Below, piece by piece: positions 1,220 to 28,628 of a DNA stretch of 33,371 bases (position 1 is its first letter; every line of letters begins with the position of its first letter). The DNA lies in NCBI GenBank assembly GCA_945948915.1, contig CAMFCQ010000024.1:1-33371 (forward strand), in the 5' to 3' direction. The translations under genes and the position numbers were made by a program. The notes beneath the pieces were generated by a model. It had not been told where the DNA came from. It was given only the letters and a program-made list of their open reading frames with translations, and ran no database searches. Source of the DNA: an uncultured Clostridia bacterium (GTDB lineage: Bacteria; Bacillota; Clostridia; Christensenellales; Aristaeellaceae).

Positions 1220-1782
1220 TCCTGTTTGAACTGTTCTGCGCGTTCTTTGAGATCGCGCTGTTCTCCATCGGCGGCGGCTATGCGGCCATGCCGATGATCC
1301 GCAGCCAGGTGGTACAGGCGCACGGCTGGATGACGATGAGCGAGTTTGCCGACCTGCTGACCATCGCGGAGATGACGCCCGGCCCGATTCAGCTCAACGC
1401 GGCGACGTTTGCGGGCATGCGCGTGGCGGGCTTTCCCGGCGCGCTGTGCGCGTCGCTGGGCGTGGTGACGCCGTCGCTGTTGCTGGTGTCCCTGCTGGCC
1501 TATGTGTACCGGCGCTGGCAGAGCCTGTCGGTGATTCAGGGCGTGCTGGGCTTTCTGCGCCCGGCGGTCGTCGCGCTGATCGCCTCGGCGGGGCTGGACG
1601 TGCTGCTGCTGGTGCTCTTTCACGGGCAGCGGATTGCGCTCCAAACCGCCGATTGGCTGGGCGCGGGCCTGTTTGTGCTGGCGCTGGTGCTGCTGCGCGC
1701 AAGGAAGATGAGCCCGATTCTCGTCATGGTGCTCTGCGGCGTGCTGTCGCTGGCTGTGGGTGTGCTCTTTGGCGCGGCATGA
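1216..1782 (+). CDS. Chromate transporter family protein, half-size subunit 2
   Basis: This is the partner half of the split CHR transporter, 188 residues. It repeats the family pattern: SIGGGYAAMP near residues 17-26, then TPGPIQLNAATFAG, followed by hydrophobic helices to the C-terminus. The start at 1216 shares the ATGA overlap with the preceding stop. A GAAGGAGGC site inside the upstream gene serves as ribosome site. The two halves are similar in length and motif order, as expected from duplication with opposite topology. No terminator with a T-run is visible after 1782, but a new promoter follows. Confidence 0.9.
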   Translation: MILFELFCAFFEIALFSIGGGYAAMPMIRSQVVQAHGWMTMSEFADLLTIAEMTPGPIQLNAATFAGMRVAGFPGALCASLGVVTPSLLLVSLLAYVYRRWQSLSVIQGVLGFLRPAVVALIASAGLDVLLLVLFHGQRIALQTADWLGAGLFVLALVLLRARKMSPILVMVLCGVLSLAVGVLFGAA

Positions 1783-1795
1783 GCCGCGTTCGCCC

Positions 1796-1824
1796 TTTAC
1801 AGCTTCAGATTTGTTGGGTATAAT
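1796..1824 (+). promoter_or_regulatory. Promoter of lacLM
   Basis: The -35 box TTTACA (1796-1801) and the -10 box TATAAT (1819-1824) are 17 bp apart. This is one base short of full consensus. It gives a leader of about 50 nt before the lacL start. Confidence 0.8.
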
Positions 1825-1841
1825 GGGTAAGGATGACAAGT

Positions 1842-1854
1842 TTGCATCATGCAA
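1842..1854. promoter_or_regulatory. Palindrome in the lacL leader, candidate operator
   Basis: TTGCAT, one C, then ATGCAA form a perfect palindrome starting about 10 nt after the expected transcription start. The position suits a repressor that blocks elongation. It does not match a LacI-type operator closely, so the regulator class is open. Confidence 0.45.
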
Positions 1855-1882
1855 TCTGTACAGTATGAGGAGGTACCCTGGC

Positions 1883-3760
1883 ATGCAGCCCAATATCAGG
1901 TGGCTCGATGATCCGCGCGTGTTCCGCGTCGGCCAGATCGATGCGCACAGCGATCATCTCTATTACGAGAACGAGGCGGACGCCAAGGCCGGCCGGCAGA
2001 CGCTGTGCCAGTGTCTTGACGGCGTGTGGAAGTTTGCCTATTCCGTGAACGCCAAAACGCGTCCGGCAGGCTTCTATGAGGAAGGCTACGACTATTCTGC
2101 CTTCGACGACATCACCGTGCCGGGCCACATCGAGATGGCCGGCTATGACAAGGTTCACTACATCAACACCCTGTATCCGTGGGAGGGCCACGAGTACCGC
2201 CGTCCTGCCTTCTCCGGCATGCCGGGCGAGCGCATGGAGGGCCAGTTCTCCGAGGCAGATTACAACCCGGTCGGCTCCTATGTGTGCCGGTTTGACCTGA
2301 ACGAGGCGCTGCGCGGCAAGCGCGTGGTCGTCCGCTTTGAGGGCGTGGAGCAGGCGATGTATGTCTGGCTCAACGGCGTGTTCATCGGCTATGCGGAGGA
2401 CACGTTCACCCCGTCCGAATTCGACCTGACCGACGCTGTCCGCGAGACGGGCAACACCCTGTGCGTGGAGGTGCACAAGCGCTCCACCGCCGCGTACCTG
2501 GAGGATCAGGACTTCTTCCGCTTCTTCGGCATCTTCCGCAGCGTGTCCCTGCTGGCCAGGCCCGATGCGCACGTGGAGGATCTGTGGGCCAGGCCTGAGG
2601 TGGATCTTAAAACCCTCGCGGGCAGGGTGAACGTGCGCCTGAAGCTCAGCGGCAATGCCGTGAAGGTGCAGGCCCGCGTGCTGGAGGGCGAAACCCTGCT
2701 GGCCACCGCCGAGACCGACGCGGAGGACAGGCTCTCCCTGACGCTCGACATGCCGGGCGCGGTCAAACTCTGGCACAACCATCACCCGAACCTGTACACG
2801 CTGGAGATCCTGCTGCTTGACCAGAACGGCCAGGTCGTGGAGATCGTGCCCCAGCCCATCGGCTTCAGGACGATCGAGCTGAAGAACAAAATCATGTGGC
2901 TCAACGGCGAGCGCCTGATCATCAACGGCGTGAACCGCCACGAGTGGAACTGCCGCAGCGGCCGCTGCATCACGGACGAGGACGAGATCTGGGACATCGC
3001 GTGCATGCAGCGCAACAACATCAACGCCGTGCGCACCTGCCATTATCCGGACCGTCTGTCCTTCTACCGCCGCTGCGACGAGGCCGGCATCTACATGATG
3101 AGCGAGACGAACCTGGAAAGCCACGGCTCCTGGCAGAAGGGCGGCGGCATCGAGCCAAGCTGGAACGTGCCGGGCAGCAACGAGGCCTGGGAGCCCGCCG
3201 TGCTCGACCGCGCCAGGAACAACTTTGAGACCTTCAAGAACCACGTCTCCATCCTGTTCTGGTCGCTGGGCAACGAGTCCTACGCGGGCGACGTGCTGGC
3301 GAAGATGAACCGCTACTTCAAGGAAACCGACCCGAGCCGCCTGGTGCACTACGAGGGCGTGTTCAACTGTCCGGAATACAAGGACCGCATCTCCGACATG
3401 GAGAGCCACATGTACACCGCGCCGGACAAGATCAGGGAGTACCTGGAAAACGATCCGCCCAAGCCGTTCATCCTGTGCGAGTACATGCACGACATGGGCA
3501 ACTCGCTGGGCGGCATGAAGTCCTATCACGATCTGGTGGACGAATTCCCGATGATGCAGGGCGGCTTCATCTGGGACTACATCGATCAGGCCGTCATGGT
3601 GCGCGACGAGGTGACCGGCCGCGAGGTGCTGCGCTACGGCGGCGACTTTGACGACCGTCCGTCCGACTACGAGTTCTCCGGCAACGGCATCGTCTTTGCG
3701 GACAGAACCGAGAAGCCCGCGATTCAGGAGGTAAAGCATTACTATGGACTGCACAAATAA
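1883..3760 (+). CDS. lacL: Beta-galactosidase large subunit LacL
   Basis: This is the large subunit (625 residues) of a heterodimeric GH2 beta-galactosidase that hydrolyses lactose and related beta-galactosides in the cytoplasm. It carries the sugar-binding jelly-roll, the immunoglobulin-like domain and the TIM barrel. The acid/base Glu is E465 in SLGNES and the nucleophile is E533 in ILCEYMHDMGNS. RTCHYP, a conserved active-site segment, is also present. The start at 1883 is set by GAGGAGGT 9 nt upstream; the frame stays open further upstream but without a ribosome site. The gene ends where single-chain LacZ would continue, and the rest is encoded by lacM in another frame, overlapping by 17 nt. 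That arrangement is known for lactobacillal and Leuconostoc lacLM, so this is a natural split, not a frameshift. No lactose permease is adjacent. Confidence 0.95.
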   Translation: MQPNIRWLDDPRVFRVGQIDAHSDHLYYENEADAKAGRQTLCQCLDGVWKFAYSVNAKTRPAGFYEEGYDYSAFDDITVPGHIEMAGYDKVHYINTLYPWEGHEYRRPAFSGMPGERMEGQFSEADYNPVGSYVCRFDLNEALRGKRVVVRFEGVEQAMYVWLNGVFIGYAEDTFTPSEFDLTDAVRETGNTLCVEVHKRSTAAYLEDQDFFRFFGIFRSVSLLARPDAHVEDLWARPEVDLKTLAGRVNVRLKLSGNAVKVQARVLEGETLLATAETDAEDRLSLTLDMPGAVKLWHNHHPNLYTLEILLLDQNGQVVEIVPQPIGFRTIELKNKIMWLNGERLIINGVNRHEWNCRSGRCITDEDEIWDIACMQRNNINAVRTCHYPDRLSFYRRCDEAGIYMMSETNLESHGSWQKGGGIEPSWNVPGSNEAWEPAVLDRARNNFETFKNHVSILFWSLGNESYAGDVLAKMNRYFKETDPSRLVHYEGVFNCPEYKDRISDMESHMYTAPDKIREYLENDPPKPFILCEYMHDMGNSLGGMKSYHDLVDEFPMMQGGFIWDYIDQAVMVRDEVTGREVLRYGGDFDDRPSDYEFSGNGIVFADRTEKPAIQEVKHYYGLHK

Positions 3761-4694
3761 GCTGAAGCTCGTCTTTGGCGACCTGACGCTGGGCGTCAAG
3801 GGCGATACCTGGCAGGTGATCTTCAACTACATGCGCGGCGGCATCGAGTCCCTGGTGGCCGGCGGCCGCGAGTGGATGTACCGCGCGCCGCAGCCCACCT
3901 TCTGGCGCGCGCTGACGGACAACGATCGCGGCAGCCAGTTCCACCTGAAGTCCGGCTGCTGGCTGGCGGCGGATACCTTCATCCGCGTGACCGGCGCGCA
4001 GGTGGCGGTGGACGGGCAGGACATCGCGCTGCCGGTTCCCCCGGAAAACAACCGCTACACCCCGGACGAGCAGGCGGACAGCGCGGCGGTCACCTTCCTG
4101 TTTGAGACGCTGACCGTGCCGGCGGCGAAGGTCAGCGTGACCTACACCGTGACGGCGGACGGAAGGATCAACGTGGCGTGCAAATACTTCGGCCAAAAGG
4201 GTCTGCCGCAGATGCCGGTCTTCGGCCTGCGCATGATCATGCCCACGATGGCGGCGGGCTTCACCTACGAGGGCCTGTCCGGCGAGACGTACCCCGACCG
4301 CATGGCCGGCGGCGTGCCGGGCGTGTACGAGGTGAAGGGTCTGCCGGTGACGCCGTACATGGTGCCGCAGGACTGCGGCATGCACATGGCGACGAAGTGG
4401 GTGGAGGTTCGCCGCGATACGCAGCTGGCCAACACCGCCAATCCGCCCGAGAGCAGCCTGAGGATCACCATGGACGGCGAGCCGTTTGCCTTCTCCTGCC
4501 TGCCCTACACGGCCGAGGAGCTGGAAAACGCGACCCATCACGAGGAGCTGCCGCCGGCGCGCCGCACCGTGCTGTGCGTCTACGGCGCCGTGCGCGGCGT
4601 GGGCGGCATCAACAGCTGGGGCGCGGACGTCGAGGAGGCGTACCATGTGAGCGCCGAGGAGGATAGGGCGTTCTCGTTCAATATTGAGCTGTAA
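3744..4694 (+). CDS. lacM: Beta-galactosidase small subunit LacM
   Basis: This is the small subunit (316 residues), corresponding to the C-terminal beta-sandwich of LacZ. The segment PTFWRALTDNDRG near residues 49-61 is the family hallmark. The C-terminal half is rich in beta strand and ends with FSFNIEL. In this family the small subunit completes the active site and is required for activity. Its ATG at 3744 lies inside the end of lacL, with AGGAGGT about 11 nt upstream, so translation is coupled. Length and overlap match characterised LacM proteins. A sense-oriented structured repeat begins 8 nt after the stop, and an intrinsic terminator follows near 4970. Confidence 0.95.
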   Translation: MDCTNKLKLVFGDLTLGVKGDTWQVIFNYMRGGIESLVAGGREWMYRAPQPTFWRALTDNDRGSQFHLKSGCWLAADTFIRVTGAQVAVDGQDIALPVPPENNRYTPDEQADSAAVTFLFETLTVPAAKVSVTYTVTADGRINVACKYFGQKGLPQMPVFGLRMIMPTMAAGFTYEGLSGETYPDRMAGGVPGVYEVKGLPVTPYMVPQDCGMHMATKWVEVRRDTQLANTANPPESSLRITMDGEPFAFSCLPYTAEELENATHHEELPPARRTVLCVYGAVRGVGGINSWGADVEEAYHVSAEEDRAFSFNIEL

Positions 4695-4702
4695 GGCTTA
4701 CC

Positions 4703-4870
4703 GCGCGAAGCGAAGAAGGGAGTCTGAGGGATGAAATCCCTCAGGCAGGTTTAGGGACCGGAGCCTGCCGCCGCCGGTGGCGGATACAGGCAGGCGGAGC
4801 GTCGGGAATCGCAAGGAGCACCGGATGGTGCGACTATGCGAGTTCCCTGGGTCGGCAGCCCAACGTACCG
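4703..4870 (+). repeat. Structured intergenic repeat, copy R1, with internal insertion
   Basis: The core matches the other copies: GCGCGAAGCGAAGAAGGG, a hairpin with arms TGAGGGA/TCCCTCA, then the left arm of a second hairpin. Here the second hairpin is split. TTTAGGG ends at 4756 and CGGCAGCCCAACGTA resumes at 4853, so about 96 bp are inserted in its middle. The insert itself forms hairpins. The repeat starts 8 nt after the lacM stop and runs in the same direction as lacM. Confidence 0.75.
4804..4847 (+). repeat. Hairpin module inside R1
   Basis: GGGAATCGCA (4804-4813) pairs with TGCGAGTTCCC (4837-4847), leaving one bulge, around an inner hairpin GCACC/GGTGC. A related module occurs at 4894-4929; both share GAATCGCA, GGAGC and GCGACTAT in the same order. 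Confidence 0.6.
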
Positions 4871-5005: not shown

Positions 5006-5029
5006 TAGTTTTCAAATCAAAACAGCTAT

Positions 5030-5168
5030 GTGGTAAGCCACGTCAGGTAACGCTTCGCGCCCTGACTGCTGTTTCTAAATCGCTTCGCGATTGAGTACGT
5101 TGGGGGATTTCATCCCCCAAGCCCCTAGCCTGGGGACACTGTCCCCAAACCCCTTCTTCGCTTCGCGC
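5030..5168 (-). repeat. Structured intergenic repeat, copy R7 (full length, minus orientation)
   Basis: Read on the minus strand it begins GCGCGAAGCGAAGAAGGGG at 5168. It then shows hairpins GGGGAC/GTCCCC, TTGGGGGAT/ATCCCCCAA, AATCGC-GAA-GCGATT, GTCAGG/CCTGAC and GTGG-CTTA-CCAC. The layout equals copies R4 and R6, but several stems differ in sequence and still pair. It starts 17 nt after the stop of the minus-strand XpaC-like gene and runs in that gene's direction. Confidence 0.8.
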
Positions 5169-10707: not shown

Positions 10708-10786
10708 GCGCGAAGCGAAGAAGGGAGTCTGAGGGATGAAATCCCTCAGGCAGGTTTTAGGGCGGCAGCCCTAACGTACCCATATA
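10708..10786 (+). repeat. Structured intergenic repeat, copy R2 (core only)
   Basis: It starts 21 nt after the methyltransferase stop in the same direction. It shows GCGCGAAGCGAAGAAGGG, hairpin TGAGGGA/TCCCTCA and hairpin TTAGGGC-GGCA-GCCCTAA, then AACGTACC. The second stem differs from the TTTGGGC/GCCCAAA version of copy R3 by a paired change on both arms. The tail hairpins of R4, R6 and R7 are missing. Confidence 0.8.
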
Positions 10787-12072: not shown

Positions 12073-12076
12073 GGTA

Positions 12077-12237
12077 ATACTATTCTCAGATTAAACTGAC
12101 AAATCTACTTGCGCCTTTTCCATTCTGGCGTCCGCTCATTCCATTCAACGTAGCGCCGCTACGCCTCATTTCATTCGCGTTAGCCAGAATGAAAAATTCG
12201 CTTCGTATCTTGTGTCACTTTTATCTGAGAATAGTAT
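12077..12237 (+). mobile_element. MITE copy 1
   Basis: The ends are perfect 15-bp inverted repeats, ATACTATTCTCAGAT (12077-12091) and its complement (12223-12237), extended imperfectly by about 10 bp. Inside lie another inverted pair CATTCTGGC/GCCAGAATG and a short palindrome CGTAGCG-C-CGCTACG. At 161 bp with no coding capacity, it fits a non-autonomous element that needs a transposase elsewhere. It begins 4 nt after the XRE stop codon. Confidence 0.75.
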
Positions 12238-12270
12238 AAAAGCTGCCGGGCGCATGCCTGACAGCTTTAT
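12238..12270. terminator. Bidirectional terminator between convergent genes
   Basis: AAAGCTG (12239-12245) pairs with CAGCTTT (12262-12268) around an inner CGGGC/GCCTG stem. A-rich and T-rich flanks on both sides let it serve both the XRE gene (plus) and gluQ (minus). It is exactly the spacer left between the two MITE copies. Confidence 0.6.
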
Positions 12271-12273
12271 CTT

Positions 12274-12436
12274 ATACTAATTCGCAGTTAAAATGCTTAA
12301 CAGAGCGCATCAGATTTTTCGCTTTGACGAAGCCGAGTGAAGTGAGGCGTTACTTAAGGTACGTTGAACGGAATGAGGCAAAGTCAGGGCGGAAAAGATG
12401 GTGCGTGGATTAAGCTATTTTAACAAGAATTAGTAT
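12274..12436 (-). mobile_element. MITE copy 2, inverted relative to copy 1
   Basis: The ends are imperfect 27-bp inverted repeats beginning ATACTAATTC on both sides (12274 onward and 12436 backward). Read on the minus strand its interior follows copy 1: CTTTTCC, then CTCATTCCGTTCAACGTA, then CGCCTCACTTCACTCG, then GAAAAAT. So the two are diverged members of one family facing each other. The right end lies 7 nt from the gluQ stop codon. Confidence 0.7.
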
Positions 12437-12443
12437 TATCATT

Positions 12444-20312: not shown

Positions 20313-20373
20313 CCGCGAAGCGAAGAAGGGTCAAGGGACTGCGTCCCTTGCGGGGTTTGGGCGGCAGCCCAAA
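20313..20373 (+). repeat. Structured intergenic repeat, copy R3 (core only, abuts a ribosome site)
   Basis: It shows GCGAAGCGAAGAAGGG, hairpin CAAGGGAC-TGC-GTCCCTTG and hairpin TTTGGGC-GGCA-GCCCAAA. Both stems differ from R2 by paired changes. The second hairpin ends at 20373, and the AGAGGTG site of the next gene begins 2 nt later. Confidence 0.8.
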
Positions 20374-20385
20374 AAGAGGTGCTCA

Positions 20386-21331: not shown

Positions 21332-22342
21332 ATGATCCATGTGCAGTATGAAGAAGCCGTCCGTCAGATGACCCGCGGCCTTGAGCGCTATTTGAACCCG
21401 CAGGACGCGAAGCGGTTTGCGGAGATCTTTGCGGGCAATTCTCTGGATGGCGTGTACAGCCACGGCATGAACCGCTATCCGCGCTATCTGGCCGACATGG
21501 AGAACGGCCTGTGCGACGCGAGGGTGACGCAGGCGGAGCGTGTCTCCGGACTGGGCGGCCTGGAGGTGTGGGACGCGCACTTCGGCGTGGGCCCGCTGAT
21601 CGCGCAGCAGATGGCCGAGCGCGCCATTGAGCTGGCGAAGACGCACGGCATCGCCTGCGTGGCGCTGCGCAACAACAGCCACTGGCTGCGCGCGGGCCGC
21701 TACGGCCTGATGATGGCGGACGCGGGCATGATGGGCCTGTGCATGACCAATACCTGCATGAACCTCGTCGCCTACGGCGCGAAGGAGCCGTCCACCGGCA
21801 ACAACCCGATCACCATCGCCATCCCGCGCAAGGCGGGCAGCCTGGTGATGGACATGGCGGTGAGCCAGTACGCGTTCGGCAAGCTGGAGATCATGGCGCA
21901 GGAGGGCGGCATGCTCGACACGCCCTGCGGCTACGACACGGAAGGCAACCTGACCTGCGATCCCAAGAAGATCGTTGAGAGCGGCCTGATGACGCCGATG
22001 GCGCTGTGGAAGGGCAGCGCGCTGTCGATCATGATCGACCTGATGGTCTCCATGCTCTCCCTGGGCCGCACGTCGCTTGAGATCGGCACGCCGGCAGATG
22101 GCGAGAAGGGCATGAGCCAGATGTTCGTGTGCATGAACCCCGCGGCGGTGGTCGATATGGACAAGGCCGAGGAGCAGATGGAGAAGAGCATCGCGTTCCT
22201 CAACGCCCTGGAGCCCAAGGACGGCGTGCACGGCGTGCACGCGCCGGGCGAGAACCTCAAAAGGACCCGCGCGCGCAACATGGAGCGCGGCATCCCGGTC
22301 ACCGAGGATACCTGGCAGAAGATCGAGAACGCGGCGAAGTAA
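21332..22342 (+). CDS. Ldh2/malate dehydrogenase-family oxidoreductase, close to 2,3-diketo-L-gulonate reductase (YiaK/DlgD)
   Basis: This 336-residue NAD(P)H-dependent reductase belongs to the Ldh_2 family. VYSHGMNRYPRYL, with H44, aligns with the catalytic histidine region of YiaK. LGGLEVWDAHFGVG, LRNNSHWLRAG, AYGAKEPSTGNNPITIAIP and a late WKGSALSIMIDL also follow YiaK closely. That enzyme reduces 2,3-diketo-L-gulonate to 3-keto-L-gulonate in ascorbate or lyxose breakdown. The start at 21332 has AAAGGAGG 8 nt upstream. With the PfkB kinase it suggests a small module for an oxidised sugar acid or its phosphate; the true substrate is uncertain. Confidence 0.85.
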   Translation: MIHVQYEEAVRQMTRGLERYLNPQDAKRFAEIFAGNSLDGVYSHGMNRYPRYLADMENGLCDARVTQAERVSGLGGLEVWDAHFGVGPLIAQQMAERAIELAKTHGIACVALRNNSHWLRAGRYGLMMADAGMMGLCMTNTCMNLVAYGAKEPSTGNNPITIAIPRKAGSLVMDMAVSQYAFGKLEIMAQEGGMLDTPCGYDTEGNLTCDPKKIVESGLMTPMALWKGSALSIMIDLMVSMLSLGRTSLEIGTPADGEKGMSQMFVCMNPAAVVDMDKAEEQMEKSIAFLNALEPKDGVHGVHAPGENLKRTRARNMERGIPVTEDTWQKIENAAK

Positions 22343-22371
22343 TCCTGTTTTCTGATAGAAGCGAGCTGTAA

Positions 22372-22508
22372 GCGCGAAGCGAAGAAGGGAGTCTGAGGGA
22401 CTGTGTCCCTCAGGCAGGTTTGGGCGGCAGCCCAACGTATCCCCATATGGCGAAGCCATTCAGGCAAAGCAGTCAGGGAGCGAAGCGTTGCCTGACGTGC
22501 TTAGCACA
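22372..22508 (+). repeat. Structured intergenic repeat, copy R4 (full length)
   Basis: Five hairpins can be drawn in order: CTGAGGGAC/GTCCCTCAG, TTGGGC-GGCA-GCCCAA, ATGGC-GAA-GCCAT, GTCAGG/CCTGAC and GTGC-TTA-GCAC. It begins 29 nt after the dehydrogenase stop, in the same direction, and lies before the terminator at 22548. It is nearly identical to R6 over about 135 bp. Confidence 0.85.
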
Positions 22509-22547
22509 TGGCTGGGTCTATTTGAAAACTGTATAAGGTTCATATAG

Positions 22548-22573
22548 AAGGCCTTCCTGCGGGACGGCCTTTT
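22548..22573. terminator. Terminator shared by convergent genes
   Basis: AAGGCC (22548-22553) and GGCCTT (22566-22571) pair around an inner CC/GG step, followed by T residues on the plus side. It abuts the stop codon of the minus-strand RelA/SpoT-domain gene and can serve both directions. Confidence 0.7.
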
Positions 22574-23108
22574 ATGTGACCGGCTTGTAGATGAGGCGGT
22601 GCTCCATGCACGCCCACGCGTCCATGCTGGCCGTGCGCAGCTGGATCTCCACCGGCACCAGGTAGGCCTGGGAATCGAGCACCACCGGCACGCTGAAGAT
22701 CAGGTGCAGGCTGCGGTAGCCGCTCTGCTTGGGCGCGGCGATGTAGTCGTGCACCTCGTCCAGCTGCGCGACGCCGCAGGTCATCAGCGTGTGCGCGAAG
22801 CGATAGACCGCCTGACGGCTGGTGAGCACGGCGCGCAGGCCCGCGACGTCGCGCAGGCACAGTCCGGCGGCCTGCGCGGTCTCGGGCATGCCCTTCTTGC
22901 TGAGCTTGCCGCGGATGGACGCGGGCGATTTGAGCCTGAATTGAAGTGTGAGCACGTCGCTCGCATGCCGGCCGCGCGCGGCGCAGAGCATCTCCAGTGC
23001 GGCCTGCACGGCGGCTTCATAGGGACCGTAGAATTCGCTGTTAAAGACGGGATCTGGGGAGATGGAGAAATCATGGGGCAGGTTTTTCGCTGCTGCAGTG
23101 GAAATCAT
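22572..23108 (-). CDS. Compact RelA/SpoT-domain protein, probable small alarmone synthetase
   Basis: This 178-residue protein consists almost entirely of a RelA/SpoT nucleotidyltransferase domain, which makes (p)ppGpp or pGpp from GDP, GTP or GMP and ATP. The ATP-site segment RLKSPASIRGKL (58-69) is present. So are the metal Asp (D87 in RDVAGLR), the G-loop GYRSLH (130-135), the catalytic Glu in VEIQLRT (E154) and MDAWACMEH. No hydrolase, TGS or ACT domain exists. It is shorter than RelQ and RelP because it ends soon after the last conserved segment and lacks the usual C-terminal helix. The start at 23108 has GAGGTGA about 8 nt upstream. It is a single gene. Confidence 0.85.
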   Translation of the reverse strand: MISTAAAKNLPHDFSISPDPVFNSEFYGPYEAAVQAALEMLCAARGRHASDVLTLQFRLKSPASIRGKLSKKGMPETAQAAGLCLRDVAGLRAVLTSRQAVYRFAHTLMTCGVAQLDEVHDYIAAPKQSGYRSLHLIFSVPVVLDSQAYLVPVEIQLRTASMDAWACMEHRLIYKPVT

Positions 23109-27683: not shown

Positions 27684-27743
27684 GCGCAAAGCGATCATGA
27701 AGTCTGGGGGATCAATCCCTCAGCCGGGCGTTGGGCGGCAGCC
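27684..27743 (+). repeat. Structured intergenic repeat, copy R5 (degenerate core, abuts a ribosome site)
   Basis: It starts GCGCAAAGCGATCATGAAG instead of the usual GCGAAGCGAAG. The first stem is reduced to GGGGGAT/ATCCCTC. The second hairpin GGGC-GGCA-GCCC is intact and ends at 27743, just before AGAGGAGG of the next gene. Confidence 0.65.
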
Positions 27744-27760
27744 CGAAGAGGAGGTTAACC

Positions 27761-28429: not shown

Positions 28430-28566
28430 GCGCGAAGCGAAGAAGGGAGTCTGAGGGACTGCGTCCCTCAGGCAGGTTTGGGCGGCAGCCCAACGTATCC
28501 CCATATGGCGAAGCCATTCAGACAAAGCCGTCAGGGAGCGAAGCGTTACCTGACGTGCTTAGCGCA
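28430..28566 (+). repeat. Structured intergenic repeat, copy R6 (full length)
   Basis: All five hairpins of R4 are present with few changes; one is GTGC-TTA-GCGC, where a G-T pair keeps the stem. It starts 15 nt after the YheO-type stop, in the same direction, and precedes the terminator at 28629. Confidence 0.85.
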
Positions 28567-28628
28567 TGGTTGATTCTATTAGAAAATATGATTTGGGCGG
28601 AAGTTCTGATGTCCCTGGTCATAAGAAT

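Follow-up and report, generated by a model that had tools for sequence, protein, structure and literature searches.

In pneumococcal BOX and neisserial NIME elements a constant outer module encloses palindromic modules that vary. A 1988 review is said to have asked of REPs: 'Evolution by gene conversion?' Bacterial folding MITEs are non-coding elements of 70-300 bp with terminal inverted repeats that lie near coding sequences, as described in a study of REPs and related families (PMC3733652). According to the same study, REPs favour unidirectional and convergent intergenic spaces, a preference shared by the repeat analysed here; GT pairing is frequent in GTAG repeats; and dRS3 corresponds to the family termed CGTC-1 (PMC3733652). 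GTAG REPs are defined, there and in PMC8266576, by an unpaired GTAG tag directly beside the palindrome. Since PMC3733652 describes REP subfamilies whose stems carry alternative complementary residues, palindromes with covarying arms have precedents. PMC8794818 presents template switching as a mechanism by which perfect hairpins can arise and be maintained.

Within the window, by which we mean the whole stretch of 33,371 nucleotides that was analysed, the 18-mer GCGCGAAGCGAAGAAGGG occurs six times when up to three mismatches are allowed, against 0.06 occurrences expected. The matches of this 18-mer search (4703 +, 5151-5168 −, 10708 +, 20313 + with 1 mismatch, 22372 + and 28430 +) mark six intact copies, each within one mismatch of an 18-nt header that contains its own CGC-GAA-GCG hairpin. 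Behind this constant header stand one to three short, nearly perfect hairpins. A seventh copy, R5, has a header decayed to GCGCAAAGCGATCATGAAG, which the 18-mer search missed; it was recognised from its hairpins and because G011, the nearest relative, carries an intact header at the corresponding position. The first-pass annotation had described a seven-copy family and quoted its stems. The repeats are real and every quoted stem is present in the sequence, but the family was greatly undercounted: the 2.9 Mb draft genome contains 127 exact matches to the 16-mer GCGAAGCGAAGAAGGG and none to a reversed control pattern. The copies in the window are:

R1, 4703..4867, + strand: header, hairpin 1 and a split hairpin 2, with a ~94-nt structured insert at about 4757-4850.
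R7, 5008..5168, − strand: header with a bare-type upstream flank and a MITE-type right half (hairpins 1-5); absent at the orthologous G011 site.
R2, 10708..10781, + strand: bare core (header, hairpins 1 and 2), ~20 nt beyond the stop codon that ends an RlmI-like methyltransferase gene.
R3, 20313..20376, + strand: bare core between mannosyltransferase-like and PfkB-like genes, ending near the start of the next gene.
R4, 22343..22533, + strand: MITE enclosing the core (22372-22444), with imperfect ends TCCTGTTTTC / GAAAACTGTA.
R5, 27684..27750, + strand: decayed bare core; the orthologous copy in G011 keeps its header intact and differs in hairpin 1.
R6, 28430..28586, + strand: core plus MITE-type right half without a left MITE end, from reading of the sequence.

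Two kinds of copy were recognised. The bare form consists of the header and its one to three hairpins, usually lies just 3' of a gene and usually ends in CGTn and a C-rich end (52 own copies read, then more); the other form holds the core within a MITE. After the first reading of 52, 93 own copies were classified as bare or MITE-like, as judged by MITE motifs and not by intact ends, and 58 of these 93 were MITE-like versus 6 of 78 in G011. In 56 aligned copies GAAGAAGGG precedes hairpin 1, an invariance that is partly by construction because copies were picked by header.

The MITE form was defined from 26 end pairs found in the own stretches that were read, which cover roughly a tenth of the genome. 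With no base forced in the pattern, the outer 3-mers were identical in 25 pairs, and all 25 were TNA. Lengths were 192 bp (16 pairs), 195 bp (6), 286-288 bp (3) and 159 bp (1, with an unrelated interior), and the exact core lay inside 24 of the 26. R4-type copies have terminal inverted repeats and a target-site duplication and are thus MITEs. R4 itself is bordered by TAA at 22340-22342 and 22534-22536, and the duplication coincides with the stop codon of the upstream gene. A match to a transposon end, named in the first-pass annotation as a finding that would count against it, was thereby obtained in part: R4 is of the MITE form, and the copies R6 and R7, which carry MITE-type right halves and lack the left MITE end, are explained as MITE chimeras or remnants. 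G011 lacks R4, R6, R7 and L027 at the orthologous sites; at that of R4 (L172) there is no MITE, and for R6 the core is absent from the corresponding 315 nt at a G011 contig end (L305). No autonomous insertion sequence with these ends was found in the own stretches read. At window positions 12075-12239 lies the 159-bp MITE, which has TACTATTCTC ends and TAA duplications; the shared ends around an unrelated interior indicate that MITE ends carry different cargoes.

Other repeats and genes were noted around these copies. R1 is no simple copy, its second hairpin being interrupted by the structured insert; the G011 orthologue (L223) has the core without it. Inserts of this kind, ~94-110 nt long and of the form ACCGnAGCC...GGGAATCGCAAGGAGC...GCGACTATGCGAGTTCCC, occur at window 4757-4850, in L008, L016, L033 and elsewhere, and land at GGG within header-repeat hairpins. 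The L033 insert site is empty in G011, with no obvious duplication. The own genome contains 16 copies of the 16-mer GGGAATCGCAAGGAGC, which is present in 16 of 29 genus genomes, header-poor ones included. On its sequence, the insert looks like a separate mobile structured element. Another repeat of ~165 nt occupies window 12272-12439 and occurs in L006, L028 and L034, and is 86-100% identical at many G011 places. A hairpin repeat of the form GTYTCAGAGCAG[stem]CTACGATTGARACGG, whose inner stem is variable too, often stands behind bare cores, as downstream of R2 and in L030, L034 and L289. Adjoining R4 is a gene for a 178-aa RelA_SpoT-domain protein (22572-23108, minus strand), possibly a small alarmone synthetase, and the coding region of a beta-galactosidase at 1760-4694 is divided between two ORFs that overlap, one for the LacZ large part (1760-3760) and one for Bgal_small_N (3744-4694).

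Beyond the window, the header was detected in 14 of 41 genomes: the own genome, 13 of the 24 congeneric genomes and none of the 16 from other genera. When a looser pattern was run over 297 genomes of the order, no genome outside the genus had more than two matches, about the level of the reversed control, and a wider distribution was rejected. Among the genomes searched, the repeat reaches high copy number in a single genus of uncultured gut Clostridia only. A public species collection contains the exact header in at least 112 stretches, mainly Clostridia MAGs from herbivore gut; the remaining matches among those listed are scattered in unrelated taxa and were treated as chance. One MAG labelled Christensenellaceae (L108), apparently of the same order and another family, has the exact header twice, at 4501 and 4775, leading into quite different hairpins. 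Its match positions coincide to within one base with those of G177, a member of the order that appears to be this MAG. From the arm, loop and placement counts given below, 23 loci were left out: 22 from taxa outside the genus group, L108 included, and the window itself (L171).

Placement was determined from self-trained gene calls, which agree with Pfam on the window genes tested. Only 1 of 252 distinct copies placed lay in an ORF call. Where both neighbours were called (239 copies), 100 copies stood in tandem pairs in sense, 36 in tandem pairs in antisense, 100 between convergent genes and 3 between divergent genes. Of the 591 background pairs of genes in these loci, by comparison, 80 were divergent. 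The repeat is thus high-copy and extragenic and shuns divergent promoters, as REPs do. Sense orientation prevailed in 100 of 136 tandem placements (p 4e-8), among both bare copies (78 sense versus 33 antisense) and MITE-like ones (22 versus 3), and bare copies start a median of 30 nt past the stop codon of the same-strand gene. This bias may come from transcription, replication direction or selection. The hairpins have no T-run behind them, and the repeat was rejected as an intrinsic terminator.

Arm pairing was compared over 146 distinct copies, with hairpin 1 anchored on GGG...CCC in 118 and hairpin 2 in 99. Hairpins with fewer than two outer Watson-Crick (WC) pairs were excluded (3 of 118 and 3 of 99), so that 115 first and 96 second hairpins with at least two such pairs entered the covariation test. 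Pair counts were not drawn from the MAFFT alignment (A1), which shifts arms between stem classes. In the 78 distinct stems of hairpin 1, the outer three pairs comprised 224 WC, 1 GT, 3 AC and 6 other pairs, and outer position 2 was WC in 78 of 78, as TA (23), GC (22), AT (18) or CG (15). The 63 distinct stems of hairpin 2 gave 155 WC, 7 GT, 1 AC and 26 other pairs. The WC fraction, whose absolute value leans upward since the register was chosen in favour of WC pairs, was 0.957 for hairpin 1 versus a mean of 0.367 (maximum 0.491) with re-dealt right arms, and 0.820 for hairpin 2 versus 0.424 (maximum 0.492). The earlier observation that the arms change together is thus confirmed in a larger set, far beyond re-dealt arms.

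The stems form a small pool (TGAGGG, CAAGGG, TTGGGG, CTGGGG, TCGGGG, GCAGGG and others), and the same types turn up in several of the nine genome groups compared, of which most have few copies read. Hairpin 1 and hairpin 2 types combine, in 81 bare copies, in 16 of 30 possible ways. The combinations are partly linked, with a mutual information of 0.387 versus 0.163 by chance in these copies and 0 of 1,000 permutations as high.

How the hairpins change at fixed sites was assessed by aligning 13 bare cores (R1, R5, L007, L030+, L265, L272, L276, L281, L287, L289, L033, L035+ and L035-) with their G011 counterparts, whose flanks are about 84-96% identical. For eight of them (R1, L007, L265, L272, L276, L281, L287 and L289) the G011 stretch was picked by header, and header sharing there is therefore by construction; the comparison of hairpins is unaffected. 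In stretches chosen blind to the header, bare cores were shared in five (R5, L030+, L033, L035+ and L035-) and absent in three (R3, L029 and L030-), with L034 counted neither way; L028, L040 and L282, own MITE-type copies opposite something else in G011, were left uncounted.

Hairpin 1 was identical at 4 of the 13 sites (L276, L289, L033 and L035-) and differed only in the loop with its closing pair at 2 (R1 and L007, the own copy of the latter having a MITE-like left flank). Four sites (R5, L265, L287 and L035+) carried arms of another stem type. L030+ had one pair fewer on both arms, together with a new closing pair and loop. At the remaining 2 sites a unit was lost or fused: in L272 it is missing in one species, and the G011 copy of L281 looks fused through a deletion between two GGG runs. 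The G011 copy of L289 has one additional hairpin unit. In hairpin 2, L276 shows one-sided, uncompensated changes, and the L033/L332 pair differs at two adjacent pairs, changed on both sides in an otherwise unchanged core, which does look like classical compensation. Changes of stem type, gain, loss and fusion as units give perfect pairing with no stepwise compensation.

The orthologous differences and the recurring stem types support an exchange of units between dispersed copies. We favour, with a probability of about two-thirds, the reading of the family as an intergenic mosaic of the REP/BIME-like kind, specific to the genus, in which hairpin turnover proceeds by whole units. Units would move by recombination between dispersed copies, through gene conversion or through slippage and template switching at GGG runs, and the arms would appear to covary because both arrive together. 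Transcribed 3' of genes, the hairpins would be mainly tolerated, perhaps with mild effects on mRNA 3' ends; judged from the sequences, a mild or modest role there is possible. The proposed exchange is suggested by comparisons of two species, in which donor and recipient were never caught in the act. The compensated pairs of L033/L332, the small change in L030 and the linked types of hairpins 1 and 2 are evidence against a mosaic. The covariation, far above that of re-dealt arms, is most readily explained by hairpins that move whole. Exchange of units breaks the shared descent that is assumed for each column when covariation is read as a sign of conserved RNA, and where hairpins change as units arm covariation alone could wrongly suggest such an RNA.

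A conserved structured RNA is nevertheless the alternative that the first-pass annotation had implied in stating that pairing was kept by selection. Such a 3'-UTR or intercistronic element, acting as an mRNA stabiliser, attenuator or protein-binding RNA, would have its pairing selected through compensatory substitutions. The strong arm covariation, the double change in L033, the sense bias in tandem pairs and the short distance from the upstream stop codon are all in its favour, and the significant sense orientation could mean selection on RNA. RNA folding is also in its favour, with z-scores of −4.67 for R4 and −4.46 for R2; the R4 stretch 22372-22508 folds better than every one of 200 shuffles, for either strand and whether treated as DNA or RNA. 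Against it, the minus strand of R4 reaches a similar score (z −4.19). L289 was the weakest of five DNA sequences folded (z −2.87, 2 of 200 shuffles as good).

The frequency of wobble pairs bears on the same alternative. Hairpins were scored without wobble credit and compared with 94 distinct intrinsic terminators under the same scoring in the same DNA; 234 distinct copies were used, of which 193 had a scored hairpin 1 and 178 a scored hairpin 2. In terminators GT made up 5.1% and AC 2.1% of pairs, and 37% were fully WC. The corresponding values were 0.7%, 0.8% and 84% for hairpin 1 (99 distinct) and 1.5%, 0.5% and 82% for hairpin 2 (82 distinct, commonest loop 3 nt). Overall, G-T pairs were about five times rarer in the repeat hairpins than in terminators (1.0% versus 5.1%, p 8e-10), and in hairpin 1 GT was not above AC (6 versus 7). 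The GT:AC ratio was not significantly different from that of terminators (p 0.11 for hairpin 1, 0.34 for both hairpins). Loops of 3 nt prevailed in first hairpins (64 of 99 distinct), and the commonest loop of terminators was 4 nt (39 of 94). Rare wobble speaks against RNA stems that were compensated step by step over a long time, and stays compatible with an RNA role; the argument is a limited one, since wobble could also be scarce in young copies, and terminators have the longer stems (mean 11.5 versus 8.5 for hairpin 1 and 7.4 for hairpin 2). Taken with the changes of stem type and losses of units at orthologous sites and with the lack of an Rfam match at gathering score, these data make a conserved structured RNA rather unlikely in our estimate, and selection for pairing is not established.

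Perfect pairing could also be a mutational product, arising without selection or exchange if template-switch mutation in replication kept correcting the palindromes. The mechanism is published (PMC8794818), agrees with the few mismatches and with GT being close to AC in hairpin 1, and could explain L033 and L030. Acting alone it leaves unexplained both the same small set of stem types across genomes and the differences between species at single sites, and we give it only a slim chance; alongside the exchange of units, template switching may operate.

Mobilisation of a REP family by a RAYT (the Y1/HUH REP-associated transposase) acting on single-stranded hairpins would suit a high-copy, extragenic, palindromic repeat with REP-like placement. 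The Y1_Tnp domain (PF01797) is matched in 16 of 29 genus genomes. There is no match in the own genome (89% complete) or in G010, G011, G017 and G019 (22-105 headers each), and matches are merely weak or partial in G003, G018 and G020 (21-160 headers); strong full-length matches occur in G002, G004, G005, G007 and G021, with 0-2 headers, and in G044, which lay outside the header search. The GTAG tag is likewise absent beside the palindromes. A RAYT-linked REP was rejected, given the missing PF01797 in the own genome and four other header-rich ones, and we regard this explanation as very improbable. Least probable of all is a dedicated enzyme, other than Y1/RAYT, that would recognise the GCGAAGC-containing header and shuffle hairpin cassettes in an integron-like array at gene 3' ends, which could retune mRNA stability between strains.

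The mosaic repeat was finally compared with described families. Against 4,227 Rfam families, the whole window gave 0 matches at the gathering threshold, so the Rfam search proposed in the first-pass annotation identified no family; lax searches on R4, on R1 and R7 and on 15 loci gave sub-threshold matches only. The best was Clostridiales-2 (RF02937), at 24.7 bits against a gathering score of 58.6. As in Clostridiales-2, GGG is followed by a G-rich hairpin in a weak full-length alignment; in contrast, the header and the downstream parts have no correspondence. Rfam membership was rejected, for Clostridiales-2 and for the other families below threshold. Literature searches found no description of the header repeat, and a full-text search with the string GCGAAGCGAAG returned no paper on it, judging by titles. 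Nor did any described REP family match in the REP literature compared, the other outcome that the first-pass annotation had held against itself. No GTAG tag stood beside the palindromes in 56 aligned copies, which sets the repeat apart from GTAG-type REPs, and no CGTC tag was found at the head of hairpin 1 in the aligned copies. In REPs of the CGTC type the palindrome is headed by an unpaired CGTC tag and has a CCA-like tail. In the present repeat CGTn follows hairpin 2 on the tail side, the next base being A in 58, T in 42, C in 28 and G in 3 of 131 copies.

The MITE form resembles the folding MITEs RUP, NEMIS, ERIC and bcr1 in size, inverted ends and lack of coding capacity. Unlike them, it has TACTnTTnTC ends and a TNA duplication, and its interior is a REP-like core that also exists outside the MITE. 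BOX and NIME can be likened to the header repeat by description; the latter occurs in a different bacterial group, and its hairpin sequence varies by type at a fixed site. The many orthologous sites offer places where hairpin turnover could be measured. The repeat also resembles REP/BIME elements, with which it shares short, high-copy extragenic palindromes mostly 3' of genes in tandem and convergent spaces, and mosaic composites. It differs from them in the constant 18-nt header before the hairpins, in its rare wobble pairs and in that no RAYT was found in the genome, and thus represents a REP-like family in a clostridial lineage, without a detected RAYT in the own genome, whose core has been captured by a MITE.
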